Assembly (NCBI GenBank): GCA_030266365.1 | Contig: JAJDHV010000015.1 | Location: 1 to 32,936, forward strand | Source: Synergistaceae bacterium OttesenSCG-928-I11 | GTDB taxonomy: Bacteria > Synergistota > Synergistia > Synergistales > Synergistaceae | Length of the DNA stretch: 32,936 bases | Direction of reading: 5' to 3' | Part shown: piece after piece, positions 4,394-28,469 of the stretch | Layout: each line of letters starts with the position of its first letter | How positions within the stretch are numbered: position 1 is the first letter of the stretch | Made by a program: the position numbers and the translations under genes | The notes under the pieces: model-generated | Seen by the model: the letters and a program-made list of their open reading frames with translations, nothing else | What the model was told of the DNA's origin: nothing | Database searches by the model: none

Positions 4394-4450
4394 CCGCTTC
4401 CCGTTGATGTTAAAATTCGATCGCGAACATTTCGCGAGGAGGTGTGAAGG

Positions 4451-4801
4451 ATGAAAAATATTTTTTTGTTTGCAGCCATGATCGTCGTCTGCCTGACGTT
4501 GACGGGCGGAACTCCCGGTTTTTCGGCGGATCGGGTGGAGGGCGAGCTGTTGTTGACCGTCGCACCGCCGACCGACGCCGGACTCGACCGCGACGACTAT
4601 CTCGCGGACATTGCGCGCCTCGCTGACGCCGCCGTCGTCAAGGTGTACGACGCGCTGTCGCTGACGCCGGACGACCCGCTCCTGCTTCTGATCCGCTCGG
4701 AGACACTGAGCACAGACGAGATGGCGGCACGGCTCGACGAAGACGAACGCGTTCTCTCCGCGACGCCGAACGAGATCGTGCGAATCCGCAAAGCAAACTG
4801 A
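4451..4801 (+). CDS. Free-standing subtilase-propeptide-like (I9-type) secreted protein
   Basis: 116-residue protein with a signal peptide (residues 1 to about 26, hydrophobic core then GFSA). The rest aligns by eye with the propeptide of the S8 protease encoded immediately downstream: both have a GE-L-V start, ALS in the middle, LIRSE followed by ST, then D-VL-A-PN-I-R near the end. This protein stops where the mature protease domain would begin. In the I9 family such domains act as intramolecular chaperone and inhibitor of their protease; free-standing versions inhibit in trans in some organisms. Here that role is inferred. AGGAGG lies 8 bases before the ATG, and the stop at 4799-4801 is 17 bases before the protease start, so the two are probably co-translated from one mRNA. 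No catalytic residues are present. It could instead be a decayed duplicate, but the frame and signal peptide are intact. Confidence 0.75.
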   Translation: MKNIFLFAAMIVVCLTLTGGTPGFSADRVEGELLLTVAPPTDAGLDRDDYLADIARLADAAVVKVYDALSLTPDDPLLLLIRSETLSTDEMAARLDEDERVLSATPNEIVRIRKAN

Positions 4802-4818
4802 CCTCCGGGAGGATCATA

Positions 4819-6588
4819 TTGAACATGAAAAAAATTTCGATAAAAAGCCTGCTCCTGCTCTTCGTTTTTTCACTCGTCATCGCATCGCCCGCGTTCGCAG
4901 AGACGGGCCAGTACGTCCCTGGCGAGGCGCTCGTCGTGATCGCGGACCCTGTTGCGGCCCGAAGCGCACGCTCGGCGGAGGACCGTGCGGCGGCACTCGC
5001 CGTATCCGTTCGGGCGCAGGCGGACACGACCTATACCGCCCTCTCCGAGGCGGGCGGCAACGTTTTCGCCCTCATACGCTCCGAGTCGCAGAGCACGGAG
5101 GCGTTGATCGAGGCGCTGAAAAACGACCCCGACGTCCTCGCCGCAAGCCCGAACTGGATCATCCGCGCGCATGCCGCGCCGAACGACCCCAATTACCTGG
5201 ACGGCAAGCTGTGGGGGATGACGCGCATCGGCGCGGAAGCGGCCTGGGACATCACGTCAGGCGATGAGACCGTCTACGTCGCGGTTCTGGACACGGGCAT
5301 CCAGGGCGACCATGAGGACCTCGCCGCGAACGTCGATCTGACACTCGCACGCAACTTCGCAACAAGCGACCCCGCCAAATCGCGCGACGTCGCGGACGGA
5401 GACGGGCACGGCACACATGTATCCGGGACGATCGGTGCGGTCGGGAACAATGCCAAAGGGGTCGTGGGCGTCAACTGGCGCGTCAAACTCATCCCATTGA
5501 AAGTCCTGGGCGACGATGGAAGCGGAAACACCAGCATGTTGCTCTCCGCAGTCAACTATATCGTCGAGCTTCTGCAAAAGGACGGAAATATGAAGATCGC
5601 GGCGGTAAACTTCTCAGGGGGCGGATATCGCAACACCACGCCCGCCAACATTCAAAACAGCGCGGACTGGATCGCGTTCAAGGCGCTCGACTCGCTGAAC
5701 CGCACGGTCATCGTCTTCGCGGCGGGGAACGAGAGTGCCGAAGCCGACGCCCCCCTCACCGCAAACGCGCACGACAGCAAGGGCAACGTCGTCGGCACGC
5801 CGGGCCAGTACAATTACCCGACCGCCTACACTGGGATCGACAATATGATCGTCGTCGGCGCGATCAACCGCGGCGACATTGCAGCGACCTTCACGAACTG
5901 GAGCGGCAGGTCGGTCCACCTCGTCGCCCCCGGCGTCGACATTTACAGCACAACCAAGGAGGGCACCTACATCAGCGAATCCGGCACCTCGATGGCGGCT
6001 CCGCACGTCTCCGGCGCGGTGGCCCTCCTCGCGGCGCAACACCCGGAGTGGAAGGCCCACCAGATCAAAGCCCGCCTCCTGGGGACCGCCGATACGAGCG
6101 TGAACCCGATTTTCGCGACGTCCATCGAGCCACAGTTCGTGCCGGACAGAACCGTCTCCGCGTATGGGCTGCTTCGGATCGACCGGGCGCTCGACACATC
6201 GGTCGCCACGCGCGACGTTCGCGCGACGCAGGCCCGCCTCTCCGTGCCCTCGACCAAGATGCGGGTCGACGAGACGAAGACCGTCACGGCGACGATCCTG
6301 CCGTATAACACGACAAACAAAAATGTGACGTGGAGCAGCTCGGACAACGCAATCGTGACAGTCGACAACCGCGGCGTCATCCGCGCCATCTCGAAGGGAA
6401 CGGCAACGATCACGGCGACGGCGGTGGATGGGAGCGGCGCAATCGGCTCGATCACCATCGAAGCGACCAGCCTCTGGGACGACATCACGGGCGGAGGCGG
6501 TGGCGGTTGCAGCGCGCTCACGGGCGTATTGCCGCTCGTCGCCGCTGCGGCCTTCCTCGCGACGCGGAGACGCGTCCGCGCGAAATAA
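4819..6588 (+). CDS. Secreted S8 subtilisin-like protease with Ig-like domain and C-terminal sorting signal
   Basis: 589-residue secreted serine protease. Order: signal peptide (1 to about 27, PAFA end); I9-like propeptide (about 30-118); catalytic domain with Asp158 in AVLDTG, His197 in DGHGTHVSG, oxyanion Asn304 in AAGNES and Ser391 in SGTSMAAPHVSG; a bacterial Ig-like group 2 domain (about 470-550); and a sorting tail with six glycines, Cys564, a hydrophobic helix and RRR. All triad residues are present. The tail matches the Synergist-type C-terminal signal, so cell-surface anchoring or processing at the Cys is inferred. The start is either TTG at 4819 (GGGAGG six bases upstream) or ATG at 4825 (spacing twelve); the TTG is better spaced. 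The gene follows the propeptide-like gene and ends at a strong terminator (6627-6664). Substrate is unknown; peptide scavenging would suit an amino-acid fermenter. Confidence 0.95.
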   Translation: MNMKKISIKSLLLLFVFSLVIASPAFAETGQYVPGEALVVIADPVAARSARSAEDRAAALAVSVRAQADTTYTALSEAGGNVFALIRSESQSTEALIEALKNDPDVLAASPNWIIRAHAAPNDPNYLDGKLWGMTRIGAEAAWDITSGDETVYVAVLDTGIQGDHEDLAANVDLTLARNFATSDPAKSRDVADGDGHGTHVSGTIGAVGNNAKGVVGVNWRVKLIPLKVLGDDGSGNTSMLLSAVNYIVELLQKDGNMKIAAVNFSGGGYRNTTPANIQNSADWIAFKALDSLNRTVIVFAAGNESAEADAPLTANAHDSKGNVVGTPGQYNYPTAYTGIDNMIVVGAINRGDIAATFTNWSGRSVHLVAPGVDIYSTTKEGTYISESGTSMAAPHVSGAVALLAAQHPEWKAHQIKARLLGTADTSVNPIFATSIEPQFVPDRTVSAYGLLRIDRALDTSVATRDVRATQARLSVPSTKMRVDETKTVTATILPYNTTNKNVTWSSSDNAIVTVDNRGVIRAISKGTATITATAVDGSGAIGSITIEATSLWDDITGGGGGGCSALTGVLPLVAAAAFLATRRRVRAK

Positions 6589-6626
6589 GCGACCCACCTG
6601 AAGAACGAAAAAATTTTCGCGACAAG

Positions 6627-6664
6627 GCCCACGAAGGCGATATACCGCCTTCGTGGGCTTTTTT
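6627..6664 (+). terminator. Rho-independent terminator after the S8 protease gene
   Basis: A perfect 13-bp stem (GCCCACGAAGGCG at 6627-6639 with its complement at 6646-6658) and a six-base loop are followed directly by TTTTTT. It lies 38 bases after the protease stop codon. Confidence 0.95.
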
Positions 6665-6794: not shown

Positions 6795-7244
6795 TTGAAA
6801 AACTTGCAAAAAATCGGAACCGTAAAACGCAGCGGCTTCACCCTCGTCGAGATCATGGTCGTCGTCGTCATCATCGGCATGCTCGCGGCCCTCGTGGGCC
6901 CGCGGCTGATGGGGCAGTCCGACGAGGCGAAGATCAAGACGACGCGGGTCCAGATCAAGAACCTCGAACAGACGCTCGAGCTCTTCCACCTCAACAACGG
7001 GTTCTTCCCCACGACCGACCAGGGGCTGATCGCACTGATCGAAAAACCGACCATGCCCCCCGAGCCGCGCAACTATCCGAGCGGCGGCTACCTCAATTCG
7101 AAATCCGTTCCCAAGGACGCCTGGGGGAACGATTTCATCTACCTCTGTCCCGGCGACCAGGGCGACTACGACATCATCTCATACGGCAGGGACGGCCGCG
7201 AGGGCGGAGAGGGCGTAAACGCGGATATCTCGAACTGGGATTGA
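6795..7244 (+). CDS. gspG: Type II secretion major pseudopilin-like protein (GspG family)
   Basis: 149-residue prepilin-like protein. Seen: a short basic leader ending RSG, then FTLVEIM, so prepilin peptidase would cut between Gly14 and Phe15, leaving the +5 Glu (Glu19). A hydrophobic helix follows (VVVVIIGMLAALVGP). The C-terminal part has the GspG-type pattern DAWGND, a DIISYGRDG segment, EGGEG and NADISNW, which in GspG includes calcium ligands. GspG forms the periplasmic pseudopilus of type II secretion. No other secretion gene is in this window, so the partner genes must be elsewhere or this is a related type IV filament subunit. The start is taken as TTG at 6795, with GGGGAGG nine bases upstream; no in-frame ATG gives a sensible leader. 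The deaminase-like gene follows after 51 bases, probably on the same transcript. Confidence 0.88.
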   Translation: MKNLQKIGTVKRSGFTLVEIMVVVVIIGMLAALVGPRLMGQSDEAKIKTTRVQIKNLEQTLELFHLNNGFFPTTDQGLIALIEKPTMPPEPRNYPSGGYLNSKSVPKDAWGNDFIYLCPGDQGDYDIISYGRDGREGGEGVNADISNWD

Positions 7245-7295
7245 CGCGACGGATCCGAAATCCGAGAACCCGCCAAACCGGAAGGAGTCTGACAC

Positions 7296-7856
7296 ATGCA
7301 CGATTCGGAAAAGCTGCAGAAGATGCTGGAGATCATACGGGATGAAATCCTCCCGCTCACGGAAAACGAGGTCTCGAGGGGCAACAATGTCTTCGGCGGC
7401 GCAATCCTCCGCACCGACACGCTCACGTCCGTCATGGTGGGCTCCGACAACCGCGTCGAGAACCCCCTCTTCCACGGGGAGATCGACACGCTGAACCGCT
7501 TCTTCAAGCTCCCGGTCCGCCCAGACCCGGGCGAACTGATCTTCCTCGCGACGCATGACCCCTGCCCCATGTGCGCGGCGGCGATCGCTGTCGCGGGCTT
7601 CAAAGAATTGTGGGTGCTCTTCGGCTACAAAGACATCGCGGAGACGTTCGGCCTGCAAACCGACGCAGAAATATACCGCGAGGTCTTCGGTGTCGAGGGG
7701 GCACGCCCCGAGAACGCGTTCTTCACGAAACACAGCCTCAAAAAAGCCGTCGCCACGTCCCCGGACAAGGAGGCGCTGGGAGAGATTCTGGACGAGATCG
7801 AAAAACGCTACGAGTCGCTGGACGTAAAAGACACGTCCGAAGAACACGCCGACTGA
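7296..7856 (+). CDS. Cytidine/deoxycytidylate deaminase-fold zinc protein
   Basis: 186-residue protein with the zinc site of the cytidine deaminase superfamily. His60 and Glu62 in FHGEIDTL would be the zinc ligand and proton shuttle, and Cys90 and Cys93 in DPCPMCAAAI the other ligands. An FGGAI strand precedes the HxE motif, as in purine/tRNA adenosine deaminases and related nucleoside deaminases. The substrate cannot be told from sequence: a base, nucleoside or modified pterin-like ring are all possible. The C-terminal 60 residues are charged and helical and are not a domain I recognise. The ATG has GAAGGAG eight bases upstream. The gene follows gspG closely and ends at the stem-loop at 7878-7924; a functional link with the pilin is not implied. 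Confidence 0.85.
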   Translation: MHDSEKLQKMLEIIRDEILPLTENEVSRGNNVFGGAILRTDTLTSVMVGSDNRVENPLFHGEIDTLNRFFKLPVRPDPGELIFLATHDPCPMCAAAIAVAGFKELWVLFGYKDIAETFGLQTDAEIYREVFGVEGARPENAFFTKHSLKKAVATSPDKEALGEILDEIEKRYESLDVKDTSEEHAD

Positions 7857-7877
7857 CGAACAAATATCGAAACGACG

Positions 7878-7924
7878 AAAAAGCGGGTGGGGTGCCGATC
7901 GAATCGGCGCCCCACCCGCTTTTT
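7878..7924. terminator. Bidirectional terminator between convergent genes
   Basis: A 17-bp stem with one G-U pair (arms 7883-7899 and 7903-7919), a three-base loop, an A-run on the left and a T-run on the right. It can end transcription of the deaminase-like gene on plus and of the 322-codon gene on minus. Confidence 0.93.
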
Positions 7925-7935
7925 CGTCGCGAGCG

Positions 7936-8904
7936 TTACAGGATCTGCACGTAGACCAGCGTCTGGTTCACAAGCTGATATGCGATCTCGCCGAACGTGA
8001 CGGGGCCGTAAAAACCGCCGAGGTCACGCCCCTCCAACTCTCCGTACAGATAGTTGAGGATGCAGTTACACGAGAAGACGACATCCGAACCGGGCGGGGC
8101 CGAGAGTGCCGCGATGCGGTTTTCAAACTCGCCCGCGTAACTCTCGATGGGCCGCGCGAAACGGTATTCGATACCCCGGAACACCGGCGCGAAGAAGGAG
8201 ACGACGCCGTCGCTGGTCGCTTTCACGGAGATGATGATCCCCGCCCCGGAATAATCGCCCACGATCGGCAACCTCGTGTCGATGCCGTTTTGCGCGATGT
8301 AGTCGGCGAAGGCGACCTCTTCCCCGTCGACCGACGCCTTGCGGGCGGTGAAGCCGTCCTCCGGGAACGTCAGGACCGGCGCATCCGGGTCGACGTCGAA
8401 GATGTTGACGATATTGAGCACCACCATCTTGTCGTCCGGCACGCCGATGTGCAGGGCGACGGCGCTGTCCGTGAAGATTGTGCCGGTCGATCCGTCCACG
8501 ACGATCGGCGTCTGGGATTTGGCCAGATTTTTCCCCGCCACCCAGCCGACGATGTTTTTCATAAAAATGTCCCCGTAATCGGCGGCGTTCTCGGCATATT
8601 CGATGTGCACGGCGCTGTCGAACGGCAGGATCAAAATACTGAACCCGTTGCCCGGCGCGTCCGCGGTCACGCGCGAGATGTCGTCCTTTCCGTAGGCGGC
8701 GAAGCGGCAATGCTCGAACGGAAGCTCGCGCACGTCCAGGCGCTCGCCCGTCGTGACGCCGCCCCCCTCCTCCATGAAGTACTCGGTCGACCCGCCGATC
8801 CACCTGCCCTTCGGCAGTTTGCGCAGCAGGGCCTCGCTGCCCGAGATGTGCAGCAGTGTGCCGCTCTCGATTGCCATTACGGCCTCTTCTAACGTCTTTA
8901 GCAA
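7936..8904 (-). CDS. Uncharacterised 322-residue protein, faintly FIST-like
   Basis: I do not recognise this protein with confidence. It has no signal peptide or membrane segment, so it is probably cytoplasmic. Seen: an N-terminal LPKGRWIGGSTEYFM segment, a glycine-rich EEGGGVTT stretch, and a C-terminal end with FSCNCILNYLYGELEG and VTFGEIAYQLVNQTLVYVQ. The FGEIA and NQTL ending recalls the C-terminal part of FIST sensory domains, which bind small ligands such as amino acids; that is a weak inference. It lies 15 bases after the 74-residue gene at 8920-9144 on the same strand, so the two are very likely one operon. It ends at the bidirectional terminator shared with the deaminase-like gene. 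Confidence 0.8.
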   Translation of the reverse strand: MLKTLEEAVMAIESGTLLHISGSEALLRKLPKGRWIGGSTEYFMEEGGGVTTGERLDVRELPFEHCRFAAYGKDDISRVTADAPGNGFSILILPFDSAVHIEYAENAADYGDIFMKNIVGWVAGKNLAKSQTPIVVDGSTGTIFTDSAVALHIGVPDDKMVVLNIVNIFDVDPDAPVLTFPEDGFTARKASVDGEEVAFADYIAQNGIDTRLPIVGDYSGAGIIISVKATSDGVVSFFAPVFRGIEYRFARPIESYAGEFENRIAALSAPPGSDVVFSCNCILNYLYGELEGRDLGGFYGPVTFGEIAYQLVNQTLVYVQIL

Positions 8905-8919
8905 ATCAACCGCCCCCCG

Positions 8920-9144
8920 CTATATTTTGATCAGGTAATCGTAATCTTTTTGCATGATGATCGCGTACTTCGAAAAAAAATTGTTGAGATCCGCCGTGTA
9001 CTTCGCAATATCAAGGGGCTGTTCGGCATACATTCCCTTGAGGCGCGTGATGATCAGGCTCAAGCCCAACTGCGAGATCTGCATCTGCTTGTCGTAGGTC
9101 AGAACTTTTTTCACCTGGTCTTGGGACAGTGTCAGCGTCGCCAT
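8920..9144 (-). CDS. Small 74-residue hypothetical protein
   Basis: No family recognised. The product (MATLTLSQDQVKKVLTYDKQ at the start, KDYDYLIKI at the end) is soluble and mostly helical in appearance, with no signal peptide. The ATG at 9144-9142 is chosen because GGAGGTG sits nine bases before it; a GTG four codons earlier (9156-9154) overlaps that ribosome-binding site and is unlikely to be used. The gene is followed after 15 bases by the 322-residue protein, which suggests the two act together. Confidence 0.75.
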   Translation of the reverse strand: MATLTLSQDQVKKVLTYDKQMQISQLGLSLIITRLKGMYAEQPLDIAKYTADLNNFFSKYAIIMQKDYDYLIKI

Positions 9145-9169
9145 GTACAAATGCACCTCCGAGTGTTTG

Positions 9170-9211
9170 AAAAAATTTATTTGCGGGGACGCGATACTCG
9201 CGCCCCCGCAA
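9170..9211 (-). terminator. Terminator after the GLUG-repeat protein gene
   Basis: On the minus strand, an 8-bp stem (9204-9211 with 9181-9188), one mismatch, then 4 bp more (9199-9202 with 9190-9193), followed by a T-rich run (reverse complement of 9170-9180). It lies just past the stop codon of the 847-codon gene. Confidence 0.8.
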
Positions 9212-9217
9212 ATCGTC

Positions 9218-11761
9218 TTATCTCCTCCGCTTGACGATCAATGGAAGGAGCGGGAGCAGGCCGAAGATTCCGAACGCGGCGTATCCCGCGTCGCAGCCGA
9301 CGCCGCTGCTGCTGTGGACGGGCAGTTTCTGCGTGTCGCCGACGGTCACGGTCATCGGATCAAGCACCAGCTTGCCCGTGTCGTCGTAGACCGCCACGAA
9401 GTGCGGCCCCTCGGCAAGCGCCTTGCCCCTCGAAATCGAAAGCGCGTTTTCGCCGTCGGGCTTGCCGAAGACGAATTGCGCGAGGCCGTTTGTCACGTCG
9501 TCGCTCACCGTCTCATAGGCGCTCAGCGTCCCACTCGGGTCCCAAACCTCGCCGATGCCGAGCACGAGGTCGTTTTCGCCCTCGTAGATGCTCGCGGTCA
9601 TGATTTTTCCGTCATACGACGGGTCGATGTCCCAACTGCCCTGGTCGTTGCTCAAGACGAACCAGACATCGAGCGTCAGCGTCTCGTCGACCGAGATCGT
9701 TCCTAGGTCGCTCGGGTTGACCGCGCCGTCCAGGATGAGGTTCGCACCGTCACGCAGCTTGAGCTTCTGGTCGTCCGAGAGGCCGTCGTAGACCGTCTGG
9801 AAGTCGGACGGGTTGGACGGGTCGGACAGGTCGCCGTCGGCGGGCGCAGTCACGACGACCTCGATCGCGCGGGCGGTCTGGGCGATGCTGTTCACCTCGA
9901 AGGTGACCGCGACGTCGCGCGACGCGGGTTCGGCGTTCGCAAGCGCCGTCAGGATCAGGACGTCGGGCGACGTCTCGTGCTGCGTCAGCGTGAGGCCGTA
10001 TGCCGAGAGGTCCGCCGTTGTGCCCACGTTGTCCGCGCTCGCCTCCCAGCCCATGGCGGACAGGCGCAGCTCGCGCGTTTCGCCTGGGGCGATCGCGATC
10101 ATATCCGGCATGACGCAAGCCATGTCGCCGCTGATGACACCCGCTGCGTCGACAAAGGCAAGCAGATGCGGACGCGCCTTGCCGTTGATCTCGCTGTGCG
10201 TCCAGACGTCGGTGAAGTCCCAATTTGTGAATTTCGCGGGATCCGTGAACGCCGCCACGTCGAGACTGGCGATCGATACCGACCCGGTCGTGTAACCGAC
10301 GGGCGGCAGGGTCGTGTTGATCGTTGTCGTGCCGAACCAGAAGCAATCCGTTATGGCAGCCGCACTATGGAAAAAGCCGGCAAAACCCCCGGCCAAAGCA
10401 AACTTCTGTGTAAGAGCCTCGACCGTTCCATATGCGTAACTCGTCTCGATCGTAGAGCCGTCGCTGCTACGTCCAGCAAACCCGCCTGCGTATGCGTAGT
10501 CCGCGACAATGTCCGTGTTGTCCGTTTTCTTCGCGAGGGCATTGCCTGTGGCGAAGCAGTTTTTGACGACGCTCTTATTGTCGCCGATAAACCCACCGGC
10601 ATACGGGAATGAAGCGACTTCGCCCACCTCGGCGGACACGTTGCCCGTTGCGAAGCTTTCGCTGATCGTCCCTTTCATAAGAAGCCCAGCGAATCCGCCG
10701 GCGTACGCCTGTACCGTCTCGTTGCCATCGGTCGTCTTGGCGTACACATTACCCGTTGCGGCGCTGCCGAAGATCGCATCGTCGGTTTCGACATGGCCGA
10801 TGAACCCACCGGCGTACACGTCGACTTCATCTGCTCCCGCCGACGTCGCATAAACGTCGCCCTTCGCGAGGCAAAACTCCGCCCCCCCGTTGCTGATGCC
10901 GACCAGGCCGCCCGCACAGGCCGTTTCCTCATCCCCAGAGGACTCCGCATGCACGTCGCCCGTCGCAAAACAGCCGCGGAGCACGCCGTTGTTGGAGCCG
11001 GCCAAACCGCCCGCGTAAACCCTTCCGGTCGAAGAGGCGCGAACCTCTGTCACAGAGAAGCAGCCCGCAATCGTTCCATACGCGCTGCCTCCGATAAGTC
11101 CGCCCGCATACACCTGACTGCGCACGCCGGTCGACTCGACCTCTACACTGCCGGTGACGGAACAGTTCTCCATCGTACCGTAAAAGTTCACCCCGACAAG
11201 CCCACCGACATAGGTGATGCCGCTGGCGGTCGACGCCAGGGAAATCGAAACGTCCCGCAGATGAACGTTCGAAATCACGCCGCCACCGACAGCCTGTGCT
11301 CTGGTAGGAACAAGCAATGCCTCGGGATCGACGACGGCTCCGAAAAACCCGGTTAATCGAGCTTCGCCGCTCATCGCGAGGCCGGATATCGTGTATCCGC
11401 CACCGTCGTAAGCGCCCTTGAAGGAGAGCGACAAAAGATCGCTTCCATTATTTTCCTCCGGTATCGTCCCGATCGGCGTCCACGCTTTCCCGCCGAGGTC
11501 GATGTCGGCGGTCTGCCGGTACGACGCCGCGCCGTACGTGGCGTTGTCCTCGGCAACCATCTTGGCGATCCACGCCAGCTCCGCGCCGGTCGAGATCAGA
11601 TACACGCCGTCGTCATCCAGCTGCGGCTGCGTCGTCGTGCTGCCGTCCCACGGCGTCGCCTCGGCAGCCGTTGCCGCACCTGCCCCAACCATCTGGAAGG
11701 GACAGAGCGAGAACAGGAACGTCAGCAGCAGGTACGCGCAAATTTTTCTGTTTCCTCTCAT
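9218..11761 (-). CDS. Secreted GLUG-repeat surface protein with variant C-terminal sorting signal
   Basis: 847-residue exported protein. A signal peptide covers about residues 1-34. From about 184 to 480 there are nine tandem repeats of a YAGG-hydrophobic-GG start and a CFATG-V end, the GLUG-type pattern that usually folds as a beta-solenoid in adhesins and secreted enzymes. Residues 500-820 contain Ig-like and beta-rich segments without a name I can give. The end, SSGVGC then DAGYAAFGIFGLLPLLPLIV and KRRR, is a variant of the Synergist-type tail: the Cys and the membrane helix remain but the poly-Gly is replaced. Surface attachment and adhesion are inferred. GAAGGAG lies nine bases before the ATG at 11761. 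No enzymatic motif was seen. A terminator follows at 9170-9211. Confidence 0.9.
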   Translation of the reverse strand: MRGNRKICAYLLLTFLFSLCPFQMVGAGAATAAEATPWDGSTTTQPQLDDDGVYLISTGAELAWIAKMVAEDNATYGAASYRQTADIDLGGKAWTPIGTIPEENNGSDLLSLSFKGAYDGGGYTISGLAMSGEARLTGFFGAVVDPEALLVPTRAQAVGGGVISNVHLRDVSISLASTASGITYVGGLVGVNFYGTMENCSVTGSVEVESTGVRSQVYAGGLIGGSAYGTIAGCFSVTEVRASSTGRVYAGGLAGSNNGVLRGCFATGDVHAESSGDEETACAGGLVGISNGGAEFCLAKGDVYATSAGADEVDVYAGGFIGHVETDDAIFGSAATGNVYAKTTDGNETVQAYAGGFAGLLMKGTISESFATGNVSAEVGEVASFPYAGGFIGDNKSVVKNCFATGNALAKKTDNTDIVADYAYAGGFAGRSSDGSTIETSYAYGTVEALTQKFALAGGFAGFFHSAAAITDCFWFGTTTINTTLPPVGYTTGSVSIASLDVAAFTDPAKFTNWDFTDVWTHSEINGKARPHLLAFVDAAGVISGDMACVMPDMIAIAPGETRELRLSAMGWEASADNVGTTADLSAYGLTLTQHETSPDVLILTALANAEPASRDVAVTFEVNSIAQTARAIEVVVTAPADGDLSDPSNPSDFQTVYDGLSDDQKLKLRDGANLILDGAVNPSDLGTISVDETLTLDVWFVLSNDQGSWDIDPSYDGKIMTASIYEGENDLVLGIGEVWDPSGTLSAYETVSDDVTNGLAQFVFGKPDGENALSISRGKALAEGPHFVAVYDDTGKLVLDPMTVTVGDTQKLPVHSSSGVGCDAGYAAFGIFGLLPLLPLIVKRRR
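10322..11212 (-). repeat. Nine tandem GLUG-type repeats within the surface protein gene
   Basis: The encoded segment (residues 184-480) contains nine units of about 28-37 residues starting YVGG, YAGG, CAGG or LAGG and ending in forms of CFATGNV. The DNA copies have diverged, so this is an old protein-level repeat and not a recent DNA amplification. Confidence 0.85.
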
Positions 11762-26870: not shown

Positions 26871-28469
26871 CTAGTCGCGGAACATCCGCACGATAGCGAC
26901 GCCCGCAAGCGCAATCAGCGCAAAGATCCCCGCGCCCGCACTGCACCCGCCGCCACCACCGCCGCTGTAATGCTGCGGACGCTTCTCCAAGACGATCGGG
27001 TCCTCGATCTTGGCGTTCGGGTTACCGTCGTAGATGAAGAGGATGTTGTTCGTGTTGTCGTATTTCACGCCGTACTGATTATTCTCGCCGGCATAAGCAT
27101 CGCACCAGTTGTCAAGCGGCGCAAGCGCGTCGACCATGACCACGAGCGGGCCGAGGCGGAACTCGCCGGTCGTTGTGTCGCGCACCATGTACGTTCCCAT
27201 CCTCCTGGAGAGGACGTCCGAAATCTCGATTGCGTAATTGGCCGTACCCCGTTCGAAGTATTTCATGATCCGGTAGTTGTTGTGGAAATCCGCCACGCTC
27301 GACGAGTTCGCGACCGGCGTCCTGCCGTCAGGGTAGAGCAGATTCGCGAGGTTGAAGGAGAGCATCATCGGGATCATGTTACCCTTGACGGTCGACGGGC
27401 TGAAGTCCGCTTCGAAGCGCATTGCTGCAACGACTCGCGTGTCGAAATCACTGATGTTCAGTCCGTGTGCCGACGTGATCATCGTACGGTTGATATAGTA
27501 GCTTGCCTTCTGCGGGTTGCTGCCGATGAGGTAATAGACGCCCCCCGTCGTGATACCGGAAGCGGTCTTGATCTTATCGGAGGTCAAAGCGCCGGAAAGC
27601 GTGCCGATGTAGCTCTCGTCCACACCGTACAATATCGTCGAACTCTTTTCCTCGTCGAGCGGCTTCCAGTCGCCGGTCTCGATCGGCGCGATCACCATGT
27701 CGTCGGCAATCTCGCCCTTGCCGACAACCGTGATATCACAGGACGCGGTGGCTGTGGTTCCGTTTTCGCCCGTTGCCGTCACGATGATCTTCGCTGTCCC
27801 GGGCTGTGCCACAGTCAGTCGCGCCATGTCGGGGGAAAGACTCTCCTGCACCGGAGTGACGACATCCTGATTTTGCGAGCTCCACACGTATGCCACATTC
27901 GTCGCGTTGTTCGGCGTGGGCGTGGCTGTCAAATAAAGGCCTTCCCTATTCTGGCGAACCGTGAGCTTCGACTCGTTCAGTGAAACACCGGCAAGCTCGA
28001 TTGCCTGCGCGAAGGATATTTCAACGGTCGCATTCGCGCCTACCGTCGTACCTCCGGCATCTTTAAGTTCTGCGGTGATTCTGAACTTATCGCTCAGCTG
28101 CGCGTTTGCAAATTGAATGGTCACCTTTGCACGGCCATTCGTATCGAGCGGCGTGTCCTCACCTGGGTTGAAGGTGTGGGTGGCGTTGGTGGCCCCTGTC
28201 GAGATATTTGCCACACTCCAGATAATTTTTGTGCCCGAATTGGCTGTGGCGTTGTCGGTTGCTGTGTGAGCGGTCAGCTCGACGCTCGGTTTGGTGAGCG
28301 TCAGTGTGATGTTATAGCCCGACCTGTCTCCGCGCAGAGCGGGATTGCCCGCCAAACGGTCGATCTTCCCGAAACTCGCCTCGGACGGGGCAGCATTCAA
28401 CACAAGGCCCCAACATGTCAACGCTGCAAGAAACAAGAAACAAATTCTCGAAACCCTCATCCTAATCAC
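26871..28469 (-). CDS. Secreted Ig-like-domain protein with Synergist-type sorting signal
   Basis: 532-residue exported protein. A signal peptide lies at about residues 1-33 (ICFLFLAALTCW core, PSEA end). Two Ig-like regions follow: one around 45-150, and a Big_2-like one around 155-250 (VSLNESKLTV, VWSSQNQDVV, TAKIIVTATGENGT). The central 280 residues are beta-rich without a family I recognise. The end is six glycines, Cys, a hydrophobic helix and RMFRD, the same tail as the S8 protease. A surface structural or binding role is inferred. GTG at 28469 is chosen because AAAGGGG lies seven bases upstream and the predicted promoter (28513-28541) puts the transcript start near 28506. Alternatives are ATG 28460 (nine bases after the GTG) and ATG 28496, which would leave almost no leader. 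Confidence 0.85.
   Translation of the reverse strand: MIRMRVSRICFLFLAALTCWGLVLNAAPSEASFGKIDRLAGNPALRGDRSGYNITLTLTKPSVELTAHTATDNATANSGTKIIWSVANISTGATNATHTFNPGEDTPLDTNGRAKVTIQFANAQLSDKFRITAELKDAGGTTVGANATVEISFAQAIELAGVSLNESKLTVRQNREGLYLTATPTPNNATNVAYVWSSQNQDVVTPVQESLSPDMARLTVAQPGTAKIIVTATGENGTTATASCDITVVGKGEIADDMVIAPIETGDWKPLDEEKSSTILYGVDESYIGTLSGALTSDKIKTASGITTGGVYYLIGSNPQKASYYINRTMITSAHGLNISDFDTRVVAAMRFEADFSPSTVKGNMIPMMLSFNLANLLYPDGRTPVANSSSVADFHNNYRIMKYFERGTANYAIEISDVLSRRMGTYMVRDTTTGEFRLGPLVVMVDALAPLDNWCDAYAGENNQYGVKYDNTNNILFIYDGNPNAKIEDPIVLEKRPQHYSGGGGGGCSAGAGIFALIALAGVAIVRMFRD

Follow-up and report, generated by a model that had tools for sequence, protein, structure and literature searches.

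Across the Synergistota, a subtilase propeptide-like domain recurs as a separate, apparently exported protein, in most cases encoded beside the gene of an S8 protease. We analysed one such pair in a 32,936-nucleotide stretch of Synergistaceae bacterium OttesenSCG-928-I11 (contig JAJDHV010000015.1; referred to here as the window). The small protein, P0001, probably acts in trans in the periplasm as a product-mimic inhibitor that guards the cell from its own surface-bound subtilase, P0002, a function that we propose by analogy and from the anatomy of the two proteins. Since the pairing recurs across the phylum, P0001 is probably a dedicated inhibitor of a surface protease in the cell envelope. 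Homology, the predicted fold, the recurrent linkage, purifying selection among relatives, an asymmetry in sorting tails and one fused gene (L068) speak for inhibition; six of 40 small genes standing apart from any S8 gene and the silence of the Synergist-CTERM model on P0002 speak against it. For the phylum as a whole, we see about even chances that Synergistota repeatedly detached a subtilase propeptide and conserved it as a periplasmic inhibitor, with one surface-sorted S8 protease, or a tandem group of them, under guard in each lineage, which would make these proteins a bacterial counterpart, of several independent origins, to the eukaryotic stand-alone inhibitors.

The gene pair and its products

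The two genes lie in tandem on the forward strand, 17 bp apart, each with its own Shine-Dalgarno sequence that can be read directly. The gene for P0001 (116 aa) runs from an ATG at 4451 to the end of its stop codon at 4801, with AGGAGG at 4437..4442, 8 nt ahead of the ATG. The gene for P0002 (589 aa) occupies 4819..6588 including the stop, starting at TTG 4819 or ATG 4825, and its GGGAGG (4807..4812) falls within the intergenic gap. There is no terminator in this 17-bp gap, and an intrinsic terminator lies 3′ of the protease gene (6626..6659, forward strand; a 14-bp stem and a U run, −29.6 kcal/mol, z −6.6). We infer that the pair forms a two-gene operon and is co-transcribed. The gene on its 5′ side is encoded on the opposite strand and is, judging from its translation, lepA.

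P0002 consists of a signal peptide, a propeptide, an S8 catalytic domain, a Big_2 domain and a C-terminal tail. The propeptide (residues 28-118, 4900..5172) is supported by a structure model and passes the PF22148 (Fervidolysin_NPro-like) model with 24.2 bits against a cut-off of 21. The catalytic domain (5179..6108; PF00082, E=8.7e-50) has an intact Asp/His/Ser triad in the motifs VAVLDTG, HGTHV and GTSMAAP, and is followed by the Ig-like Big_2 domain (6226..6438; Pfam E=3.6e-13) and by a Synergist-CTERM-like sorting tail of the form GGGGGGC-hydrophobic-RRRVRAK (6490..6585), an anatomy shared with the complete partner proteases of related loci. We place the propeptide/mature junction after H118, between IIRAH and AAPNDP, from the propeptide register and from the PNDP motif, which, going by the start of thermitase, we take to mark the expected mature start. 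The protease thus keeps a full propeptide of its own, as the preliminary description of this DNA had stated.

P0001 has a predicted type I signal peptide (4451..4528, MKN...GFSA, no lipobox) with a 12-residue hydrophobic stretch scoring 3.2 on the Kyte-Doolittle scale and a modelled helix at residues 3-18. It is followed by the propeptide-like domain (4529..4777), which runs into the C-terminal tail NEIVRIRKAN (4769..4798) that is delimited by alignments and holds N107 and R113. The claim of a separate exported protein therefore agrees with the sequence, and the product is of propeptide length, with a signal peptide and without a catalytic domain, as in stand-alone propeptide mimics.

BLASTP of P0001 against P0002 gave one strong match, between residues 21-115 and propeptide residues 23-120 (35% identity, E=1e-9). 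With the signal peptides removed, the two sequences scored 101 against 28.7 ± 5.3 for 5000 shuffles, none of which reached that value (z=13.7). Sequence comparison thus confirms homology of the mature part of P0001 with the P0002 propeptide from end to end, and bears out the description of the two as paralogous domains. The motifs named earlier (GE.L, ALS, LIRSE.ST and VL.A.PN.I.R) align in order, and the common end point holds in that P0001 stops 3 residues beyond the position matching the predicted junction. Aligned with hhalign, 27 free-standing proteins matched 20 S8 propeptides with E=5.6e-41; since these alignments include signal peptides, the mature-part shuffle test gives the cleaner number. 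Within its own genome, a 55.6%-complete assembly, P0001 matched only itself, P0002 and a second S8 protease.

The label 'I9-type' had to be given up, since neither P0001 nor the P0002 propeptide passes Pfam I9 by sequence. At E≤0.1, I9 (PF05922 / MEROPS I9) matched neither P0001 nor 26 relatives, and it matched 3 of 20 Synergistota S8 propeptides (best E=5.6e-4), while PF22148 matched 14 of these 20. PF22148 did not match P0001 and found 5 of 27 free-standing relatives at the same threshold (best 0.0053). No propeptide model of Pfam or NCBIfam was passed by P0001, and neither collection gave an informative match. A PDB sequence search, with P0001 alone and with its alignment as queries, returned nothing significant.

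The AlphaFold2 model of P0001, built from 21 aligned sequences, has a mean pLDDT of 85.7, with about 86-97 in the core of the propeptide-like domain (blocks of ten). Its elements follow the order strand 27-37, helix 47-57, strand 61-66, strand 77-82, helix 88-95 and strand 101-109, which recurs in the modelled P0002 propeptide with one short additional helix. As the earlier reading anticipated, AlphaFold2 and Foldseek point to the ferredoxin-like propeptide fold, two helices on a four-stranded sheet. Among the PDB matches listed by Foldseek were the subtilase prodomains 8gkq/8gko (Aspergillus alkaline protease) and 9fic (PC1/3 prodomain; TM 0.69 by target length), together with many unrelated ferredoxin-like folds; E-values were modest for all of them because this fold is common. 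The modelled fold is as expected, but would not by itself prove membership of the family. Against a viral fold library the model gave nothing notable.

Recurrence and origins of the free-standing genes

Both P0001, searched against 151 genomes, and its alignment, searched against 188 Synergistota genomes, produced many matches in short open frames. Picking genes by frame length, irrespective of their neighbours, we counted at least 40 free-standing propeptide-like genes in 36 Synergistota genomes. This lower bound excludes L122, a protease interrupted by a frameshift or a break in the assembly, and L118:5706 and L040:6240, whose ORFs are cut at contig ends. Those carriers that have names in the genome collection are Synergistaceae of the ruminant gut, some of them under the name Fretibacterium. 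In 34 of the 40 cases (the window and 33 of 39 relatives) the free-standing gene has an S8 gene on its own strand at a distance of no more than 450 bp; L051, L118 and L127 are here counted as linked on the S8 part remaining at a contig end, L118 on a propeptide alone. That relatives would adjoin S8 genes was thus found for most of them; the window's genome holds three S8 genes, and chance neighbours would then amount to roughly one percent. The protease gene is downstream in 16 of the linked cases, as in the window, and upstream in 18. Part of this linkage could stem from an origin of the small genes by tandem duplication, which counts against the inhibitor reading.

Some loci depart from the simple pair. 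Several proteases accompany a free-standing gene in L039, L059 and L115; in L115, two tandem free-standing genes with 91% identity (5535-5894 and 5897-6259, reverse strand) stand before three S8 proteases. In L068 a free-standing-type domain with a signal-peptide-like stretch is fused in frame behind the protease, which could result from loss of a stop codon or from misassembly. L062 contains a 1275-aa ORF (7444-11268, reverse strand) with the order propeptide, S8 domain, hydrophobic tail, signal peptide, propeptide and S8 domain, the arrangement expected if the stop between two tandem protease genes had disappeared; L068 looks similar, with a protease and a free-standing propeptide as the joined parts.

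For six of the 40 genes (L038, L043, L046, L058, L119 and L126) no S8 gene was found nearby. These relatives, and the predicted export of P0001, would suit a secreted protein that inhibits the subtilases of other organisms, whether competitors or a host, and not the neighbouring protease. We nevertheless regard such a role as very unlikely in view of the strong S8 linkage and the fused case L068, and the sole propeptide studied in PMC10580911 was selective for its own protease.

In a tree of 103 domains the free-standing forms are scattered among the fused ones. Parsimony requires at least 11 changes, 7 of them forced by supported branches; both counts are approximate because the tree rests on 107 columns and the contig-end fragment L118:5706 is labelled free-standing. 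By this tree, free-standing copies appear to have originated several times. Lineages that span several species comprise about 16 rumen-type sequences, seven sequences in the window's family, L039/L059/L115, and L033/L040/L116/L117/L118/L120. L034 is a recent offshoot of the propeptides of its neighbour proteases; P0001 has a long, poorly placed branch and is without a close ortholog, and its grouping with its own family's lineage is not rejected (AU p=0.33). L065 carries a very divergent free-standing propeptide gene (6991-7461, reverse strand) that adjoins an S8 gene, on a branch of about 3 changes per site.

The preliminary description had also proposed a duplicated domain. The paralogy stands, whereas a fresh tandem copy of the neighbour's propeptide is not supported, since P0001 (on its long branch) and the P0002 propeptide do not pair in the tree.

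The several origins, the closeness of L034 to its neighbours' propeptides and the length of the P0001 branch would fit a functionless relic left by the decay of a tandem protease gene, an explanation that we consider highly improbable. Among relatives, dN/dS is 0.06-0.31 where measurable; the ratios are rough because many dS values exceed 1. These values point to purifying selection in four free-standing lineages that are independent of one another, with dN/dS up to 0.31, which argues against decay. The signal peptide, ribosome-binding site and predicted fold of P0001 are likewise intact, and its codon positions look coding-like, with GC fractions of 0.66/0.42/0.78 that resemble those of neighbouring genes. 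The S8 linkage, too, persists across changes of gene order: in a single lineage, L035, L036 and L037 have the protease upstream and L042 and L063 have it downstream, so the linkage survived rearrangement.

Known propeptide mimics and protease partners

Stand-alone mimics of subtilase propeptides are known from eukaryotes: POIA1, yeast proteinase B inhibitor 2, Arabidopsis SPI-1, Toxoplasma MIC5 (TgMIC5) and SUB1-ProM (PMC6993865). The closest in arrangement is SUB1-ProM of Plasmodium, a stand-alone propeptide encoded beside subtilase genes that is a potent and selective inhibitor; it agrees with P0001 in orientation and in the fold predicted for the latter, and has an Asn at the second helix-cap position (PMC6993865). 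It differs in being eukaryotic and in that its inhibition has been demonstrated. POIA1, yeast inhibitor 2, SPI-1 and MIC5 are also small, separate proteins that share the subtilase propeptide fold, but they too are eukaryotic, and P0001 lacks a Pfam I9 match. To our knowledge, none of these four is operonic with its protease.

The bacterial parallel that we know of, SpeB-Spi, concerns a cysteine protease. In Streptococcus pyogenes, Spi is a propeptide analogue whose gene adjoins that of SpeB, is co-transcribed with it and is thought to protect the producer; SpeB belongs to the unrelated C10 family, unlike the S8 protease P0002 (PMC2873492). Staphostatins and Bacteroides Bfi, the latter predicted at the periplasm and membranes, are similarly small inhibitors encoded within tens of bp of a secreted protease gene, but they are lipocalin-like, not propeptide-derived, and target cysteine proteases (PMC2873492). 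In Myxococcus xanthus, the subtilisin-like protease PopC is kept back before secretion by its own dedicated partner, PopD; unlike P0002, PopC has no signal peptide, and no homology to propeptides is described for PopD (PMC6434023).

In the literature searched, which covered few subscription journals, we found neither a bacterial stand-alone S8 propeptide nor such a pair, nor any work on surface proteases of gut or rumen Synergistota, for which the pairs would provide candidate inhibitor pairs. Convergent evolution has been discussed as a possibility for stand-alone subtilase propeptide mimics (PMC6993865). The detached propeptides described here are recognisable relatives of the propeptides of their own phylum's proteases, and because such relatives exist at stages from recent (L034) to old, the path from protease part to separate regulator is traceable by sequence.

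C-terminal tails and a proposed model of periplasmic inhibition

N107 of P0001 is the sole invariant column among 27 aligned free-standing sequences. In a weak ungapped alignment it falls at position 71 of the subtilisin E propeptide, one of two helix-capping positions; the direct profile match to this propeptide was not significant and served for register only. A weak profile alignment puts the P1-equivalent six residues after the invariant Asn, at Tyr77 in subtilisin, H118 in P0002 and R113 in P0001. This register is weakly supported by the sequences; at H118 it agrees with the mature start expected from the PNDP motif. R113 counts against inhibition, as Arg at P1 is unusual for subtilisins. 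The helix-cap equivalent in SUB1-ProM is also Asn (PMC6993865).

Asn-tail lengths were taken from a MAFFT alignment or, for loci added later, directly from the sequences. In every free-standing relative counted the tail extends to the P1-equivalent (N+6) or beyond it, and in 8 of 40 it ends exactly there, six of these with Phe or Tyr. Many tails overrun P1, P0001 by 3 residues and others by 10 or more; these would need trimming or a binding mode other than that of a product, which also weighs against the inhibitor reading. One free-standing lineage has long extra C-terminal tails, 22-63 residues past the Asn and Lys/Pro-rich in L046 (L046:5673-6401 and L045:5950-6381, forward strand; L066:4686-5084, reverse strand), and going by their sequences these would not fit a simple product mimic.

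Propeptides inhibit tightly, with their C-terminal tail bound in the active site in the manner of a product, and in POIA1 and yeast inhibitor 2 (YIB2) the tail matters for inhibition, with replacement of the last six residues altering potency (PMC10580911). The subtilase propeptides of mesophilic bacteria serve both as obligate chaperones and as inhibitors (PMC10580911), and the main rival reading is accordingly that P0001 is a second folding helper, a trans chaperone that raises the yield of active protease and inhibits only as a side effect. The small gene stands first in the window operon, and some loci (L039, L059, L115) have one helper among several proteases, as such a role would allow. 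However, P0002 and the partner proteases retain complete propeptides, which would be available in cis and locally concentrated; in 18 of 34 pairs the protease gene comes before the small gene; and the putative active-site tail is kept in all free-standing relatives counted. We therefore consider a folding role unlikely.

The proteins of a pair also differ at their C-termini. In complete partner proteases the C-terminus is made up of a Ser/Gly-rich stretch, a Cys, a hydrophobic stretch and a basic tail, whereas the free-standing small proteins examined carry no C-terminal sorting tail; a simple hydrophobicity test found a signal peptide in 41 of 42 of their frames. In Vibrio cholerae, a tail similar to these (GlyGly-CTERM), a rhombosortase and type II secretion put the protease VesB on the cell surface (PMC6219818). 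A sorting tail on the proteases and not on the small proteins suggests a periplasmic guard for a surface protease.

In the inhibition model, whose binding, inhibition and location we infer, P0001 and P0002 would each reach the periplasm by their own signal peptide, and P0002 would fold and process itself using its own propeptide. P0001, made from the shared mRNA, would then bind the mature catalytic domain in the manner of a propeptide, its β-sheet sitting on two surface helices of the protease with the invariant Asn in helix-capping position; the C-terminal tail of P0001 would occupy the S4-S1 cleft as a product mimic. The processed protease would stay inactive in the periplasm until its C-terminal tail sorted it to the surface, and P0001, without such a tail, would remain behind.

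The Synergist-CTERM model TIGR04564 (cut-off 22.5) is passed by the partner proteases of L042 (41.4 bits) and L065 (23.9 bits) and gives no score on P0002, though its tail has the partners' anatomy. Gly-rich/Cys/hydrophobic/basic tails of this kind occur on three window proteins (6490-6585, forward strand; 9221-9502 and 26874-27101, reverse strand), and the other two score 9.9 and 13.7 bits. Because all three fall below the cut-off or score nothing, TIGR04564 seems to miss many likely cases. Directly after the protease gene and its terminator lies gspG, encoding the type II secretion major pseudopilin (6804-7241, forward strand; E=6e-53), whose product is possibly part of the export route for tailed proteins.
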